NCBI RefSeq assembly: GCF_003946335.1
Contig: NZ_RHNX01000015.1
Span: forward strand, 1-62,826
DNA: 62,826 nucleotides
Direction: 5' to 3'
Source of the DNA: Levilactobacillus fujinensis
GTDB lineage: Bacteria > Bacillota > Bacilli > Lactobacillales > Lactobacillaceae
In this document: piece by piece, positions 38,546-46,362 of the stretch
How the letters are laid out: each line of letters begins with the position of its first letter
Numbering within the stretch: the stretch's first letter is position 1
Program-made: the position numbers and the translations under genes
Notes under the pieces: model-generated
The model's database searches: none
Told to the model about the DNA's origin: nothing
What the model saw: the letters and a program-made list of their open reading frames with translations, nothing else

Positions 38546-38724
38546 CGGTCAGGTTGTTCATCACAAGCCAAAAACCATGACGATTTCGTGACAGTTTCGC
38601 CGAATTCTACCGGAATACGGGGGAACTTCTTTGCACTTCACTGCTCGGGCCGTTATACTTGAACATGTGTCGTTTTTCCGGTCAACCAAAAATAAAGTCT
38701 ATTTATGAAAGGTGTTGTTACCCC

Positions 38725-40434
38725 ATGTCATTTGACGGATCCTTTACCCACGCAATGGTTCAAGAACTGAGCCAAACATTGACGACCGGCCGTGTTAGCA
38801 AGGTCAACCAGCCCTATGCCAACGAAATCGTCCTGACCGTTCGTGCGAACAGCCACAACTATCCGATCCTACTATCGGCCAATCCGACCTACGCGCGCAT
38901 CCAGGTGACGCAGATTCCTTACGTCAACCCACCCGTTCCCACCAACTTTACCATGATTCTACGAAAGTACCTTCAAGGTGCAATTCTTAAGGGAATTACT
39001 CAGGTCGCCAATGACCGGGTCGTTCACCTACATTTTACGTCACGTAACGAACTTGGTGATCAACAGGAACTCCTCTTGATCATTGAAATCATGGCACGAC
39101 ACAGTAACGTCATTCTGGTCGACACTGCGTCCATGAAAATCCTAGACGCCATCAAACACGTTGGCTCCGACCAAAATCGTTATCGGCTCCTATTACCGGG
39201 TGCCCAGTACATCATGCCACCCAAGCAAGATCTCGTTGATCCCTTCACTGGCGCCCGAGACGACCTGACTGCGACCGTACGCGATTTTCCTAACCAGGAA
39301 GTTCTTGCCCACACCCTGCAACAACAGTACCAGGGGCTTGGCAAGGACACCGCTGCGGCCCTGGCAACCAAGCTCCACGAACCCGGCGACTCTGTAACTA
39401 ATTTTGCGACCTTTTTCAAAGGGTTCGCTACGCCACAACCAACATTGGCTATCACGTCTAAGGGCAAGACCAGCTTCACTGCCTTTCCGTACCCCAGCAC
39501 GGGCACGCAGCAAGCCGCTGCCACGCTCAGTACGTTGCTAGACACCTACTACCAAGATAAGGCTGAACGTGACCGTGTACAGCAACAGGGGAGCGTCCTC
39601 ATTCGGGTGGTCCGCAACGAACTGAAGAAGGACCGTAATAAGTTAAAGAAACTAAAGCGAACGCTCGCTGAAACGGAAAATGCCGACGAGTACCGCATCA
39701 AAGGAGAAGTGTTGACGACTTATCTCAGCCAAGTCCAACGCGGTCAGACCGAGGTCGAGTTGCCAAACTTCTATGATAACAATCAGCCAATCAAAATCGC
39801 GCTCTCCAATCAGATTTCGCCTAATCAGAATGCTCAGAAGTATTTCAAGCGCTACCAGAAGGCCAAAAATGCGGTGAGTTACGTCAACGAACAGTTAGCG
39901 ATTACGCAGGCCGACGTTGACTACTTTACCAACATCATGGCGCAGATCGAACTGGCCGCACCCAAAGACCTGGTCGATATTCGCTTGGAACTGCAACAAG
40001 GCGGTTACCTCCGGGATCATGACCACCAAAAGAAAAGCAAAAAGCAACGCCGCCAAAAGATCAGTAAGCCGGATCGGTTCACGGCCAGCGATGGCACCAA
40101 AATTTCCGTTGGAAAGAATAATCTGCAAAATGACCAATTGAGCCTCCATACCGCCAAGCGAACCGACATTTGGTTGCACGTAAAGGATATGCCAGGCTCC
40201 CACGTCATCATTCACGCGGACAATCCAAGTGATGAAACCATTATGGAAGCCGCCAACCTCGCCGCCTACTTCTCTAAGGGTCGTGAGTCCAGCAACGTTC
40301 CCGTCGACTACCTACCCGTTAAACGGCTCCATAAACCTAACGGTGCTAAACCCGGCTACGTCATCTTCACTGGTCAACACACGGTCTACGTGACACCGGA
40401 AAGTGACTTGGTCGACCGGCTAGCGGACAACTAG
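38725..40434 (+). CDS. rqcH: RqcH/FbpA (NFACT) ribosome quality control factor
   Basis: 569 residues from the ATG at 38725 after GAAAGGTG; the frame extends to 38659 without a site. The NFACT-N start MSFDGSFTHAMVQELSQTL, helix-hairpin-helix and coiled-coil middle (about 270-440) and NFACT-R C-terminus (HVKDMPGSHVIIH, then TIMEAANLAAYFSKGRES) are all present. RqcH binds obstructed 50S subunits and directs alanine tailing of stalled peptides. It was formerly named fibronectin-binding protein A. Full length, single gene with a strong terminator. Confidence 0.93.
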   Translation: MSFDGSFTHAMVQELSQTLTTGRVSKVNQPYANEIVLTVRANSHNYPILLSANPTYARIQVTQIPYVNPPVPTNFTMILRKYLQGAILKGITQVANDRVVHLHFTSRNELGDQQELLLIIEIMARHSNVILVDTASMKILDAIKHVGSDQNRYRLLLPGAQYIMPPKQDLVDPFTGARDDLTATVRDFPNQEVLAHTLQQQYQGLGKDTAAALATKLHEPGDSVTNFATFFKGFATPQPTLAITSKGKTSFTAFPYPSTGTQQAAATLSTLLDTYYQDKAERDRVQQQGSVLIRVVRNELKKDRNKLKKLKRTLAETENADEYRIKGEVLTTYLSQVQRGQTEVELPNFYDNNQPIKIALSNQISPNQNAQKYFKRYQKAKNAVSYVNEQLAITQADVDYFTNIMAQIELAAPKDLVDIRLELQQGGYLRDHDHQKKSKKQRRQKISKPDRFTASDGTKISVGKNNLQNDQLSLHTAKRTDIWLHVKDMPGSHVIIHADNPSDETIMEAANLAAYFSKGRESSNVPVDYLPVKRLHKPNGAKPGYVIFTGQHTVYVTPESDLVDRLADN

Positions 40435-40503: not shown

Positions 40504-40539
40504 CGACCTGTCAGTTAAATACTGATAGGTCGCTTTTTT
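40504..40539. terminator. Terminator after rqcH
   Basis: CGACCTGTCAGT pairs with ACTGATAGGTCG (one wobble), followed by CTTTTTTG. The reverse strand also has a T-run, so it may serve the carB-like gene too. Confidence 0.8.
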
Positions 40540-40627: not shown

Positions 40628-43201
40628 CTATCCAATCGTCCGGTTGATGATCTGATCAAGTTCAGCCGTATCGCTGAGATTACTGAGGGTCAGTGCTTCA
40701 CTCGACCCAAAGGCAATCGTCGCCCCCACCTCTTGGTCAGTTGTCCCCGGCCGGTTCAAGACGTGCAATTGGCGGAATGGAAATGCTGCATTCATCAATG
40801 CCACCCGATTACTATTCAGATCAATTTTGATTTTCGCCAGTTCATCATCATCCAACGTTGCGATGTGCTGCCGCGTCAACATGCGGACCCAGTTGACTCC
40901 AGTGACCTTACTCAAGAAGGCCATCTCAGTCAAACGAGTTGGCCGCACACCAACCACCGTGAGTTGTTTCGTATCACCCTTAGGCGCAAAGAGCACCTGA
41001 ATCATCCCCGTCACTTGCCGCTCACTCACGGCCTGTTTAGCAAGTTCCACTAAGCTAAGCCGCTTGGCCTTGGGCAACTCTGCCGGCATCCGAAAGGCCG
41101 TGACCTGTGCCAACGACTTATTCATCCCCGGCGTGAGCATATCCATCACGCCCACCGCAATCTTCTGTTGACCATGGACAAAGAGACTCACGCCGATCGT
41201 TGCCATCTTAGGTGGCTCCTCACCGGTCTCTTGGTCCGGTGGTAAAACGTGGAGGTTCACATTCAGTTTACCTAACTCCCGTGTCAAATAATGTCGATTA
41301 CCCGGAACGATCACGATATCTGGATGTTCAACCTGAATCACGTTGAGCACGTCGCCCAGTTGGACCGGGTCTACGTACTGCTTATCCGAAAATTCCGGTG
41401 CAATGGCCACCGCGTTTGGATTCGTGTTCATGAGGATCGTGTGATAGCCAGCCCGCTGTAACTGCTTCAGCATTTCCGTGGTGAAGTATTCCGCAGCCGA
41501 ATTCGGCCCCAATTGATTACCACCCCGGCCAAGCACCAGTGCCGTCCGGTCACCCAATGGTTGGCTCTCATTTTCATATTCAAACGTACTGTAGTAACCG
41601 CTGGCGTCCTCTGCAAATTCTCCGGCAGTCGGTTCGATCATCTTATAGGTCGGCATAATATGGGCCTCAGCCGAAAGGTGCCGAATCGTTGCCGTATCCG
41701 TTTGCCAAATACGTGCGATCATTCCATCTCCAAATCCGTAATAACGGGCCCGCTGTAATGTGTCGACGTTTAAGGGATTATCTTGAATTTCCTGTTCAAT
41801 CGTCAGCAGGTGTTGGAGCTTCACAAAGTAAAAATTGTCGATCTTCGTCAGTTCACTCAGTTCATCGGGCGCATATCCCCGCCGTAAAGCTTCAATCAGA
41901 ACTAGGATGCGGTTAGCCAGTGGATGAATCAACTGACTGATCATTTCCCCGTCCGTTAGATTGCTAACACTGGGCAGAACATCTCGTGGCGAAAATTGCG
42001 AACTACGAACCGCCTTTAACATGGCCTCTTCCACCGAGCGACCAATACCGATCGTAGACCCAACCGCTTTCATCGCTGTATCCAAGTGTTGATCGGCGTC
42101 TGGCACCTCCTGAAACGGCCACAACGGAATGCGGACACTCACGTGGTCAATGGTGGGCTCCATGATAGCCGTCTGCTTCACATAACGACTAGGAAGCTTA
42201 ATATCGACCAATCGTTGGCCCAGTAACAAGGCACCCGTGACCAATGCAATCGGATAGCCCGTGGTTCTGGCCGCTAAAGCGACCCCGCGGGAAAAGTATG
42301 GTGCAACCTTGGTCACATAGAAGTGTTGGTTTGCAGGATTCAAGGCAAAGTGGAGGTGCAAGACACCAACGATGCCCAGTTCCGTTGCAATTCGGAAAGT
42401 AGCGTCCCGTAAGTTTTGATATTCACGGTCCGTCAAGGTCTGTGGTGGCGTGACGACGATAGAATCCCCGGAATGAATGCCGATGGTATCCACATTTTCT
42501 AGCCCGCACAGGAGAACCTTCGTGTCAGCCACGTCACGAATTGCGACCATTTCGACTTCCTTATAACCAACAACACTGCGTTCTAACGTACACTGATCAA
42601 AACGTGATTGCTGGAAACCCTGATTGAGGGCATTCAACATCTCATCGACATTTTCACAAACGGTCCGGTTGGTATCCACGCGTGGTGAGACCGGCTTAAC
42701 GATCAGCGGAAACCCGATTGACTCCACTAAACCCATAGCCTCGTCAGTCGTATCCACAATCTGGGCTTCAATCACGGGTTCATGAATCGCCTTTAGCGTC
42801 GCATTCAGTGCCGCTGGGTTGTTGATCTGCCGCAATGTGCTAGCCGTCATCCCTAAAATGGTCACCCCAAAGCGACCAAGGTCACCATTTTCAATGAGCT
42901 CTTGGACGATTTGAACGGCCAGCAAACCGCCTAGTGATGGCAAGATGGCATCCGGCCGATCCTTTTCAATGATGTGCCGGACGTTAGCGGTCGTCACAGC
43001 CTGAACATACATATTCGTTGGTTGAATTTCTTCGAGGGCGACTGAAAAGGGATTGTTGTCAATAATTGATGTACGCACCCCGTGCTTTTTAAACCCCGTG
43101 ATGATCTGCACGGTAGCACTGTCGAGCTCGGTCTCGTGACCAATTTCAGTCGGCCCGCCACCAATGATCAACACTTTCTGTAAATCATTTAAGTTTTGCA
43201 A
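40628..43201 (-). CDS. Degenerate carbamoyl-phosphate synthetase large-subunit homologue
   Basis: 857 residues against the usual 1,060 or so; TTG start after GGGAGGGAT, 2 nt after the carA-like stop. The N-terminal half keeps the CarB fold: GGGPTEIG, IHSGDSIVVTPPQTLTD and ARTTGYPIALVTGALL. But the glycine-rich ATP loop is replaced (KPVSPRVDTNRT), and the metal-ligand Glu and Asn are Lys298 and Ala300 (VTKVAPYFSR). The middle oligomerisation region is kept. In the second half the N-lobe of the ATP-grasp is missing, and most of the C-terminal allosteric domain is lost. It is likely inactive as a synthetase yet conserved as a protein. It is the last gene of the lspA-rluD-pyrR-carA cluster. Confidence 0.88.
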   Translation of the reverse strand: MQNLNDLQKVLIIGGGPTEIGHETELDSATVQIITGFKKHGVRTSIIDNNPFSVALEEIQPTNMYVQAVTTANVRHIIEKDRPDAILPSLGGLLAVQIVQELIENGDLGRFGVTILGMTASTLRQINNPAALNATLKAIHEPVIEAQIVDTTDEAMGLVESIGFPLIVKPVSPRVDTNRTVCENVDEMLNALNQGFQQSRFDQCTLERSVVGYKEVEMVAIRDVADTKVLLCGLENVDTIGIHSGDSIVVTPPQTLTDREYQNLRDATFRIATELGIVGVLHLHFALNPANQHFYVTKVAPYFSRGVALAARTTGYPIALVTGALLLGQRLVDIKLPSRYVKQTAIMEPTIDHVSVRIPLWPFQEVPDADQHLDTAMKAVGSTIGIGRSVEEAMLKAVRSSQFSPRDVLPSVSNLTDGEMISQLIHPLANRILVLIEALRRGYAPDELSELTKIDNFYFVKLQHLLTIEQEIQDNPLNVDTLQRARYYGFGDGMIARIWQTDTATIRHLSAEAHIMPTYKMIEPTAGEFAEDASGYYSTFEYENESQPLGDRTALVLGRGGNQLGPNSAAEYFTTEMLKQLQRAGYHTILMNTNPNAVAIAPEFSDKQYVDPVQLGDVLNVIQVEHPDIVIVPGNRHYLTRELGKLNVNLHVLPPDQETGEEPPKMATIGVSLFVHGQQKIAVGVMDMLTPGMNKSLAQVTAFRMPAELPKAKRLSLVELAKQAVSERQVTGMIQVLFAPKGDTKQLTVVGVRPTRLTEMAFLSKVTGVNWVRMLTRQHIATLDDDELAKIKIDLNSNRVALMNAAFPFRQLHVLNRPGTTDQEVGATIAFGSSEALTLSNLSDTAELDQIINRTIG

Positions 43202-43203
43202 GC

Positions 43204-44280
43204 CTATCCCTCCCGTGCTGTCATAGCTTCCATGAATTCATCAAACAGGTCCCGACTCTCGTGAGGCCCCGGTGCACCATCCGCAAAGAATTGAACGGAA
43301 AATGCGGGGTAGTCTCGGTGCCGCAATCCTTGTACGGTCCCATTGATCAGGTCAACATAGGTCGTGATCAGTCGATCCCGGTCGATCGACTTGGCGATGA
43401 CTGCGTAGCCCTGACCCTGGGTCGCATAGATAATATCATTGGTGATGATCCGCCGAATTGGGTGACTGCTACCGTGGTACTCAACGGGCAAGGCTTTCAG
43501 TTCCGCCCCATTAGCGAGAGCGAAGAGTTCGTGTCCCAGTCCGATTGCAAAAAGCGGAATCTCCGCTTGGACCTCACGAATCATTTCTAAGACGCCAGCC
43601 CCTAAATCGAGTGGTGAGCCCGGTCCCGTAGACAGTAAAACCCCATCTGGATCCAGGTTCAGCACATCCTGGGCACTCGCCGTCCACGGTAAGACCGTGA
43701 CGTTACACCGGCGCTCCGACAATTGCCGGAGAATGCCGTGTTTCAGTCCAAAATCGATTACGACCACATTCTTCCCGGTATCCGGGTTCGGATACGGCCG
43801 GGGCGTTGCCACCTGATCGACCTGACGATTGGTCAGCACCGTCGCATTCAACTGGTCAAACGCGTGCGCATCGGCCACATCGACGATACTCCCTTTCATT
43901 GGTCCGGCCTGTTGCCGTAATTTACGAATCAGGTGGCGCGTATCGATACCACTGATACCAGGAATATTGTGTTGCTGTAAGAATTCGTCCAGTGACAACC
44001 GTGAGAGGCGATTAGTCGAAATGTTCGTGACATCTCTGACCACCATCCCTTTAGCCGTTGGTAAAATCGACTCGTAACTGTCGTGATTGATCCCGACATT
44101 GCCAATCGCTGGCTGGGCAAAAATAATAATCTGGTTATGATAAATTTGATCGGTAATCGTTTCTTGATAGCCTAAAAGGTTTAAGTTAGAGATTACTTCG
44201 CCGCTCGTGGTGGCGCCGGCACCAAATCCTTCACCGGCGTAGGCCGAGCCGTCTTCTAAAATCAAATAGCGTTTTGCCAT
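43204..44280 (-). CDS. Carbamoyl-phosphate synthetase small-subunit homologue lacking the glutaminase triad
   Basis: 358 residues, full length for CarA. The N-terminal CPSase domain (LEDGSAYAGEGFGA, LGYQETITD, GNVGINHDSYES) and C-terminal class I amidotransferase domain (LLSTGPGSPLDLGAG) are both present. The nucleophile elbow, normally G-I-C-L-G-H-Q, reads AIGLGHELF, so the catalytic Cys is Gly247. The His-Pro-Glu pair of the triad reads FFADG (Phe332, Asp334). Glutamine hydrolysis is therefore excluded. ATG after AAAGGGG, 24 nt after pyrR and 2 nt before the carB-like gene. Confidence 0.9.
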   Translation of the reverse strand: MAKRYLILEDGSAYAGEGFGAGATTSGEVISNLNLLGYQETITDQIYHNQIIIFAQPAIGNVGINHDSYESILPTAKGMVVRDVTNISTNRLSRLSLDEFLQQHNIPGISGIDTRHLIRKLRQQAGPMKGSIVDVADAHAFDQLNATVLTNRQVDQVATPRPYPNPDTGKNVVVIDFGLKHGILRQLSERRCNVTVLPWTASAQDVLNLDPDGVLLSTGPGSPLDLGAGVLEMIREVQAEIPLFAIGLGHELFALANGAELKALPVEYHGSSHPIRRIITNDIIYATQGQGYAVIAKSIDRDRLITTYVDLINGTVQGLRHRDYPAFSVQFFADGAPGPHESRDLFDEFMEAMTAREG

Positions 44281-44304: not shown

Positions 44305-44859
<555 letters not shown>

Positions 44860-44887
44860 TCACGGCGTTAACGTAAATGCAGGAAAC

Positions 44888-44926
44888 GGGCGCGTTTCTT
44901 CGGCAAAATGGTGAAGAAACCCGCCC
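44888..44926 (-). promoter_or_regulatory. Stem-loop in the pyrR leader
   Basis: GGGCGCGTTTCTTC (44888-44901) and GAAGAAACCCGCCC (44913-44926) pair over 14 bp with one mismatch. No T-run follows on the minus strand, so it is not a simple terminator. It may be an RNA structure affecting pyrR expression; the PyrR-binding loop consensus is not obvious. Confidence 0.45.
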
Positions 44927-44974
44927 GCCTGATTCGGCAAACCCGCTTATCTTAGTACGTTTAGCATAAAAAAA

Positions 44975-45901
44975 CTAGATTGCTTTGTCAACCGGCAAGC
45001 CGGCCTGTTGACGCAAATGACGAACCATCCGCGCAAAATTATCTGGCACTGGCGCGGTGAAGTCCAATTGCTCACCCGTCGTGGGCTGCTTAAACCCGAG
45101 TTCACGCGCATGTAAGAACTGCCCATCGCCCTTCAGCGTTTTTTTCGGTCCGTATAACGGATCGCCCGCGACCGGATGGTTGATGTACGCCATATGGACC
45201 CGAATCTGATGCGTCCGACCGGTCTCCAAGCGACAGGCGATCAACGTGTAGTTGCCGTAGCGCTCTAACACGCGAAAATGCGTGACGGCGGGGCGACCAT
45301 CGGCAACAACGGCCTGCTTCTTCCGGTCCTTAGGCGACCGACCTAGTGGGGCTCTGATGACCCCTTCTTCTTCTTTAAAGTTACCGTGCACAATAGCCAC
45401 GTACTCCCTCAAGTTGGTCTTGGCCTGTAACTGTGCTGACAGGCTCTGATGGGCATGATCATTTTTAGCGACCATCAGGAGGCCTGACGTGTCCTTGTCG
45501 ATGCGGTGAACAATGCCAGGCCGCAACGTCCCATTAATGCTGGATAACGGGCTGTGATATAACAAGGCATTAACCAGCGTATGGTTGGGGTGTCCAGGTG
45601 CGGGATGGACGACCATCCCTTGAGGCTTGTTGACAACTAGCACATCATCATCCTCATAGACCACGTCTAAAGGAATATTTTCTGGTTCCAGATCCAAAGG
45701 CTCGGGATCTGGCAACTCGATATGGATCGTATCGCCAACTTTCGGCTTGTCCTTAGGTTTAGCCACCGCCCCATTGACCGTAATCTGACCGGCCTCAATG
45801 GCAGCTTTCGCCTGAGACCGTGAAATGGTGTCCACTTGATCGGCCACTAACTTGTCTAACCGTTCCGTGGTCGTTACCGTAAATCCTTCTGTTTGCATCA
45901 T
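44975..45901 (-). CDS. RluD-family pseudouridine synthase (YlyB-like)
   Basis: 308 residues. An N-terminal S4 RNA-binding domain (about 10-75: RLDKLVADQVDTISRSQAK) precedes the RluA/RluD catalytic domain with the catalytic Asp in HRIDKDTSGLLMVAKN and the later RTHQIRVHMAYINHPVAGD. It converts uridine to pseudouridine in large rRNA. The start overlaps the lspA stop (ATGA). It belongs to the conserved lspA-rluD-pyrR order. Confidence 0.93.
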   Translation of the reverse strand: MMQTEGFTVTTTERLDKLVADQVDTISRSQAKAAIEAGQITVNGAVAKPKDKPKVGDTIHIELPDPEPLDLEPENIPLDVVYEDDDVLVVNKPQGMVVHPAPGHPNHTLVNALLYHSPLSSINGTLRPGIVHRIDKDTSGLLMVAKNDHAHQSLSAQLQAKTNLREYVAIVHGNFKEEEGVIRAPLGRSPKDRKKQAVVADGRPAVTHFRVLERYGNYTLIACRLETGRTHQIRVHMAYINHPVAGDPLYGPKKTLKGDGQFLHARELGFKQPTTGEQLDFTAPVPDNFARMVRHLRQQAGLPVDKAI

Positions 45902-46362
45902 TTAGCCTCCTGCCGATCGGTGATGTAGACACCGATTGCAATTAGAATCACGCCAACCGTTAAACAACTGTCAGCGAAGTTAAAGATGGGAAAATTGACA
46001 AAGTCGAGCTGAAACATATCGACCACGTATCCCTGAGTCAAACGATCAATAAAATTCCCAATGGTTCCCGCCATCATCAGTGCCAAGCCGAGTTCTTCGA
46101 CCCAGTGATCCCCCTGGTTGCGGTACTGCCAAAAGAAGTAGCCCATGATGCCTAAAGCGACGATGGCGATCACCGCAAAGAACCACATCTGGCCCTGTAA
46201 AATACTCCAAGCCGCCCCGTCATTACGCAGGTGGGTCAAGGAGAGTACCCCCGGGATAACCGGGTGTTCGCCGCCAAGGGCGATGTTGACCACTACCGCG
46301 TGCTTGATCCACTGATCGGCAGCGACCAGGAGCACGATTAAGAGTGTATCTGCAATCAGCAT
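45898..46362 (-). CDS. lspA: Lipoprotein signal peptidase (signal peptidase II)
   Basis: 154 residues with four transmembrane helices. The family motifs are LRNDGAAWSILQ, GTIGNFIDRL with the first catalytic Asp, and FNFADSCLTVGVI with the second. It cleaves prolipoprotein signals after lipidation, such as that of the DUF915 protein at 247-1086. ATG after GGTGTTCCGGAAGC. First gene of the cluster. Confidence 0.95.
   Translation of the reverse strand: MLIADTLLIVLLVAADQWIKHAVVVNIALGGEHPVIPGVLSLTHLRNDGAAWSILQGQMWFFAVIAIVALGIMGYFFWQYRNQGDHWVEELGLALMMAGTIGNFIDRLTQGYVVDMFQLDFVNFPIFNFADSCLTVGVILIAIGVYITDRQEAK

Follow-up and report, generated by a model that had tools for sequence, protein, structure and literature searches.

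A carbamoyl-phosphate synthetase pair conserved across Lactobacillaceae and commonly linked to pyrR is predicted to be catalytically dead

The window analysed here is a stretch of 62,826 nucleotides from Levilactobacillus fujinensis (NCBI RefSeq assembly GCF_003946335.1, contig NZ_RHNX01000015.1, positions 1 to 62,826 of the forward strand). Behind an intact pyrR it carries genes for homologues of the small and large subunits of carbamoyl-phosphate synthetase (CPS; CarA and CarB, also PyrAA and PyrAB), here termed dCarA and dCarB. We report that these two proteins are, as judged from their sequences, a pseudoenzyme pair, i.e. CPS-shaped, conserved and catalytically dead. They belong to this class because catalytic residues have been lost while purifying selection acts on both genes, and the residues that remain predict with good confidence that the pair is incapable of making carbamoyl phosphate. 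The three genes are:

44305..44838, minus strand: pyrR, intact, with the phosphoribosyl pyrophosphate (PRPP) loop and HRELPIR; likely ATG start, the open frame extends to 44856
43204..44280, minus strand: gene for dCarA (358 aa), predicted dead CPS small subunit with C269G, H353F, S47I, Q273E and N311G (E. coli numbering)
40628..43201, minus strand: gene for dCarB (857 aa), predicted dead and shortened CPS large subunit with a destroyed first ATP site, lacking both the second N-lobe and the allosteric domain

Loss of catalytic residues within a predicted CPS fold

According to our residue table (E. coli numbering throughout), the glutaminase Cys269 is replaced by Gly and His353 by Phe in dCarA, as stated in the original prediction, which was made from the window alone; its further claim that Asp334 marks a lost catalytic Glu is not upheld, Glu-to-Asp not being a lesion. 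The glutamine contacts S47, Q273 and N311 are replaced by I, E and G, respectively. In the first synthetase domain of dCarB, R129 is changed to P and R169 to K, the G175/G176 loop is lost, and E299 and N301 are replaced by K and A, in agreement with the predicted loss of the ATP loop and with Lys298/Ala300; these positions have ATP or metal roles. The second ATP-grasp domain is incomplete, with its N-lobe columns deleted in the alignment, and the C-terminal allosteric domain is absent: the trimmed model stops at E. coli residue 939 and the conserved columns from 943 on are deleted. These deletions bear out the claim that the N-lobe and most of the allosteric domain are missing from the 857-aa protein.

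As also anticipated, the two frames are open and coupled, 3' of the intact pyrR, and the fold is kept: the predicted models match CPS structures (Foldseek TMq 0.88 for dCarB against 1jdb_B and 0.90 for dCarA against 1cs0_B) and the Pfam domains of both CPS subunits are detected. The pair therefore shares with PyrAA/PyrAB the predicted fold of both subunits, the gene order, the coupling and the locus, and differs in lacking the catalytic Cys/His, the glutamine contacts, the ATP sites and the allosteric domain. An ordinary second CPS is ruled out by the residue table. Laboratory C269 mutants of E. coli CarA reportedly keep a working large subunit. Position 269 is likewise changed in these mutants (C269S and C269G; 1c30 is titled as the structure of a C269S mutant), with Gly being fixed naturally in dCarA, whereas the ATP sites of dCarB are lost too; an NH3-dependent CPS of the kind represented by the mutants is ruled out since the large subunit is also broken. 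As a separate observation, dCarA (43204-44280) exceeds the cut-offs of the NCBIfam models TIGR01368 and NF009475 for the CPS small subunit.

The lesions are common to many homologues. Among 80 aligned CarA rows, position 269 is Gly in 43, Cys in 37 and nothing else, and His353 is kept by 37/37 Cys rows and 0/43 Gly rows. Canonical CarA has 121 conserved columns; the canonical state persists in 75 of them, 11 are now fixed for a different residue and 35 are relaxed. In 30 main-clade sequences several canonical positions hold new fixed residues, namely S47I (87%), Q273E (97%), E299K (83%) and E338Q (100%). Moreover, the mean column identity of 41 dCarA sequences from many genera is 66%, with the residue Gly247 invariant, and the CarB stretch around E. 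coli 212-255 stays well conserved. The newly fixed residues and the conserved 212-255 stretch would fit neofunctionalisation, i.e. a new catalytic activity gained on the CPS scaffold. However, the first ATP-grasp domain retains neither its nucleotide-binding loop nor its metal ligands, the second domain lacks its N-lobe, and Gly occupies the nucleophile position in 43/43 non-Cys rows, so no ATP-grasp or Cys chemistry is expected in the main clade; we therefore regard such an activity as unlikely.

Purifying selection

The ratio of nonsynonymous to synonymous substitution rates (dN/dS) within Levilactobacillus was calculated according to Nei and Gojobori (NG86), with medians taken over pairs with dS<1, many more distant pairs being near saturation at synonymous sites. 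The median was 0.013 for dCarA (47 pairs, 35 sequences) and 0.016 for dCarB (20 pairs, 35 sequences). The same method gave 0.009 (28 pairs) for PyrR and 0.017 (14 pairs) for RqcH, most sequences of these two being partial, and 0.030 for RluD (3 pairs, 5 sequences). dCarA is as constrained as the working neighbour genes. Together with the lost catalytic sites these values support the earlier proposal of a non-enzymatic pair under selection. Furthermore, all four Gly codons are used at position 269 (172 motif matches, near-copies included), and the Gly is therefore old and has been kept.

Slow decay of a redundant CPS, with pseudogenes in progress, might be suspected given that dCarB lineages have lost different parts and that the pairs in two genomes (G043 and G055) are short or very divergent. 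It is refuted for the window genus, which the dN/dS values cover, and extremely improbable overall: dN/dS is near 0.015, the frames are open in 35/35 Levilactobacillus genomes and Cys-to-Gly is common to 30 of 37 genera. The dN/dS values and open frames likewise rule out assembly error in the window genus. The circumstances named at the outset as speaking against a selected pair were looked for, and the opposite was found: the pair is family-wide, it is not relaxed, and its lesions are common to homologues. Joint decay is seen in G043 (L104), where a very decayed pair (347 + 659 aa) lies beside a PyrR without the PRPP loop.

Distribution in Lactobacillaceae

The genome to which the window belongs has one CarA and one CarB match, and both are the dead pair; the second canonical carAB that had been suggested as a check was not found there, and neither pyrB nor pyrF scored over the curated cut-offs. 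Across Levilactobacillus a full-length open dCarB frame at ≥83% identity and the Gly motif in dCarA are present in 35/35 genomes. A full-length CarB occurs in addition in four of these (G005, G013, G014 and G021), the same four that have pyrB over cut-off; the remaining 31, including the window genome, have neither (G006 is only 72% complete). The full-length carB has an in-frame TAG in the assemblies of G013 and, outside this genus, G062 (L290). Over its cut-off, pyrF is found in 15/35 genomes, the window genome not being among them, and in 11/35 without pyrB over cut-off, which suggests that the latter use orotate. In G003, G005, G013 and G021, the four Levilactobacillus genomes that have pyrF among those checked for both, pyrF is closely preceded by a PyrR RNA element.

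The dead pair is also present in 21/21 Lactiplantibacillus genomes (the genus being assigned from the 100% identity of G247 dCarB to L139, Lactiplantibacillus pingfangensis), each with an additional full-length CarB frame of 1065-1071 aa. This co-occurrence, which concerns frame length only, would be expected if the pair were a regulatory subunit inserting into the active CPS of the same cell as a dominant modulator. On the other hand, 31/35 Levilactobacillus lack full-length CarB and pyrB, yet the pair is strongly constrained, and the window genome, without any other CPS match, offers no active CPS on which the pair could act. We consider such a modulator contradicted for most of the window genus and very unlikely overall.

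The family was sampled with one genome for each of its 37 genera. The C269G pair was identified in 30 of these, with rluD upstream in 29; in the remaining one (G061) the pair lies beside pyrR with no rluD within the stretch examined. A canonical CPS occupies the rluD locus in five (G045, G046, G058, G063 and G064), G062 has neither PyrR nor the dead pair, and in G066 the locus is cut by a contig end. A motif scan, which required Gly before the motif where Levilactobacillus has Ala, detected the pair in at least 88 of 397 genomes; adding the 25 Levilactobacillus and 21 Lactiplantibacillus genomes that it missed gives at least 134 of 397. Finally, a scan of named genomes returned at least 118 stretches, and a dead CarA motif frame is present in 114 of the matches listed; the four without it (L136, L146, L165 and L186) are all from outside Lactobacillaceae and represent chance. 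Among the matches listed, the pair is also found in Lentilactobacillus, Secundilactobacillus, Furfurilactobacillus, Pediococcus, Leuconostoc, Weissella, Fructobacillus and Apilactobacillus.

Linkage to pyrR and to pyrimidine transport

Co-occurrence with pyrR, raised in the original prediction, stands as far as synteny in most lineages is concerned, with pyrR adjoining the pair in 25 of the 30 sampled genera that have it, and fails as a universal rule in Limosilactobacillus and Paucilactobacillus. Within the 37-genus sample carAB comes after each rluD-locus pyrR with a visible downstream side; 24 of these pairs are dead and five are live. In Levilactobacillus, pyrR (partial or whole frame) is beside the pair in 35/35 genomes, the rest of the pyr operon being gone from the locus, and in the scan of named genomes pyrR adjoins the pair in 67 of the 90 loci showing rluD and dead carA among the matches listed.

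The window PyrR, the single true PyrR of its genome, scores over the cut-off of the NCBIfam PyrR models and matches solved PyrR chains (phmmer E 1.2e-69 and 2.1e-68); alignment with other PyrR indicates that the PRPP loop and the RNA-binding segment HRELPIR are kept. An Rfam search detected no PyrR RNA element at the window operon itself. Elsewhere in the genome the best such element immediately precedes a uracil-permease-like gene (447 bits against a cut-off of 477) and a second one is found ahead of a 146-aa frame and an NCS1-type transporter that is below the cut-offs of its models; both elements score below Rfam gathering, and a third match is likely chance. The 146-aa frame (L119 3433-3873, minus strand) has no NCBIfam match at E 1e-10. 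A transporter is also part of the locus in G044, G054 and G055, which fall outside the main clade and have the order pyrR, NCS2-type permease, dead carA, dead carB; the best model for this permease is uracil permease PRK10720 (450-465 bits against a cut-off of 477), and the NCS2 family model is over cut-off.

The pair and PyrR2 of Lactiplantibacillus

In 21/21 Lactiplantibacillus genomes the gene for one PyrR lies roughly 1.1 kb ahead of that for dCarB, a Gly-type dCarA being encoded between them, and a second PyrR of 65-68% identity is also present. By synteny we infer that the PyrR of the pair locus is the published PyrR2. CPS is the one pyrimidine enzyme that uses bicarbonate, and a pyrR2 mutant is said to require high CO2. 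The operon name pyrR1BCAa1Ab1DFE implies that a second pyrAa/pyrAb copy has already been noticed in L. plantarum. PyrR2 of L. plantarum is reported to be an inorganic-carbon regulator (PMC3582564). The L. plantarum PyrR2 system and the window locus are alike in that the locus pyrR corresponds by synteny to the second Lactiplantibacillus PyrR, with the pair directly behind it; they differ in that only one true PyrR is encoded in the window genome and that pyrB and a full-length CPS are absent from most genomes of its genus.

Origin of the pair

A quick tree of CarA only (80 rows) has four changes of state, which would imply more than one origin within the family. Without rows L104, L103, L117 and ecoli (76 rows) two changes remain and the 39 Lactobacillaceae dead rows group together (support 94); a tree of CarA and CarB 1-560 (56 rows) also has two changes, with the 29 Lactobacillaceae dead rows in one clade (Shimodaira-Hasegawa-like approximate likelihood ratio test, SH-aLRT, 99). 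As all of these trees were built quickly and contain long branches, one origin within Lactobacillaceae is the best tree and not a proof. In the concatenated tree the dead clade groups with CPS of Lactobacillaceae. Its first-branching members there, G044 and G054, retain a full-length CarB, and G054 also retains the first-ATP-site residues listed above; the Cys-to-Gly change therefore seems to be earlier than the loss of sites in the large subunit.

Outside the family, two genomes of genus g46 (G079 with L242 and L294, G113 with L295) have a CarA with Cys-to-Gly and His-to-Asn and a full-length CarB with both ATP sites broken; a search at E 1e-60 gave no other CarB match in either. In G079 the dead CPS lines up with pyrR and other frames of pyr type (neighbours named by sight and position), and the second origin rests on SH-aLRT values of 87 and 90 for the pairing with canonical L243. 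The change in g46 is apparently independent of that in Lactobacillaceae.

Flanking genes and candidate transcription signals

On the minus strand of the window the order is lspA, rluD, pyrR and the genes for dCarA and dCarB. The names lspA, rluD and rqcH are presumptive and were assigned from sequence features. The remaining features are:

44975..46362, minus strand: lspA and rluD, upstream flank, ancestral pyr-operon locus (open reading frames, synteny)
44963..44991, minus strand: promoter-like site of sigma-70 type, TTGACA-17-TATGCT, at the rluD end ahead of pyrR (consensus scan, 10/12 matches)
44882..44930, minus strand: G+C-rich leader hairpin in the rluD-pyrR gap, attenuator or terminator candidate (consensus over 12 Levilactobacillus leaders including the window)
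40504..40532, strand unassigned (listed on the plus strand): terminator-like hairpin in the gap that separates the operon from the convergent rqcH-like gene
38659..40434, plus strand: rqcH-like gene, convergent, downstream flank of the same locus (open reading frames, synteny)

Eight promoter-like sites were found against 4.9 +/- 2.2 in shuffles and six terminator-like sites against 4.7 +/- 2.4, so that single matches of either kind are weak; TATGCT is present in 11/12 aligned Levilactobacillus leaders, the window among them. Of the 20 consensus pairs of the leader hairpin one has a two-sided change and four are broken in one to three sequences, and the loop bases are also conserved. Because two-sided changes are few, the hairpin is supported mainly by sequence conservation, with weak covariation; an Rfam search of it (E up to 1) gave no relevant family.

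Discussion

We put the probability at roughly one half that the pair assists the uptake and synthesis of pyrimidines under PyrR control in a non-enzymatic way, most likely by adjusting the action of PyrR. An accessory role of this kind is favoured because pyrR stays with the pair, PyrR is intact and PyrR elements precede transporters. The pair would have originated early in Lactobacillaceae, within a pyr operon linked to pyrR, and catalysis may have been lost once synthesis passed to a different CPS or the pathway vanished; the pair would now most likely bind a metabolite or partner and adjust PyrR action. We infer that dCarA and dCarB form a heterodimer with a regulatory role together with PyrR.

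Several points weigh against this role. No CPS ligand site that was checked survives intact. Among the matches listed, 23 loci have no adjacent pyrR (Limosilactobacillus 15, Paucilactobacillus 4, records titled Lactobacillus 3 and Apilactobacillus 1), pyrR being absent from 15/15 Limosilactobacillus and 4/4 Paucilactobacillus loci; it is also missing from the locus in 5/30 genus representatives (G036, G039, G050, G060 and G070), and in G050, whose genome is 87% complete, PyrR was not found anywhere. The pair therefore does not need pyrR in cis, and a locus and operon inherited from an old pyr operon need not mean a common function. These lineages, and the descent of pair and locus from a pyr operon in any case, would agree with a pair independent of PyrR, e.g. 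a scaffold or chaperone-like partner, with synteny as a relic; given that adjacency persists in every Levilactobacillus genome despite the loss of the other pyr genes, and in most loci of the named-genome scan, we find this conceivable and rather doubtful.

With regard to what a PyrR accessory could bind, the original prediction named UMP, glutamine and bicarbonate. Glutamine is unlikely as its contacts S47, Q273 and N311 are replaced, and so is UMP, since dCarB has lost the allosteric domain, the UMP-binding part of E. coli CPS. For bicarbonate the evidence points neither way. Because the Lactiplantibacillus pair lies directly behind PyrR2 as assigned by synteny, the pair might be the missing sensor of PyrR2 regulation, a pseudoenzyme that binds bicarbonate (or a carbamate-type ligand) and informs PyrR of inorganic carbon. 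We hold this idea, attractive as it is, to be improbable as matters stand, with inorganic carbon as the signal being speculative.

Pseudoenzymes are a known kind. The trypanosome AdoMetDC prozyme and dead deoxyhypusine synthase are likewise reported as dead copies of metabolic enzymes kept with a role; they act on a live paralogue, whereas 31/35 Levilactobacillus have no full-length CPS. A literature search of open papers found no account of a dead CPS pair, an earlier mention being possible, and within the reach of that search a PyrR-linked dead CPS of two subunits is new.

A central two-subunit enzyme that has lost catalysis and is kept in 30/37 sampled genera of a family of bacteria with industrial uses makes a strong case for a pseudoenzyme; the same Cys-to-Gly change was reached in a second lineage. 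Since dCarA is over the NCBI equivalog cut-off for the small subunit of an active glutamine-hydrolysing CPS, it will be annotated automatically as active, and auxotrophs may wrongly be assigned carbamoyl-phosphate synthesis in metabolic models. Finally, the pair offers a testable answer to how lactobacillar PyrR2 responds to CO2/bicarbonate; if this answer is true, a metabolic sensor would have been kept across Lactobacillaceae even where pyrimidine synthesis is gone.

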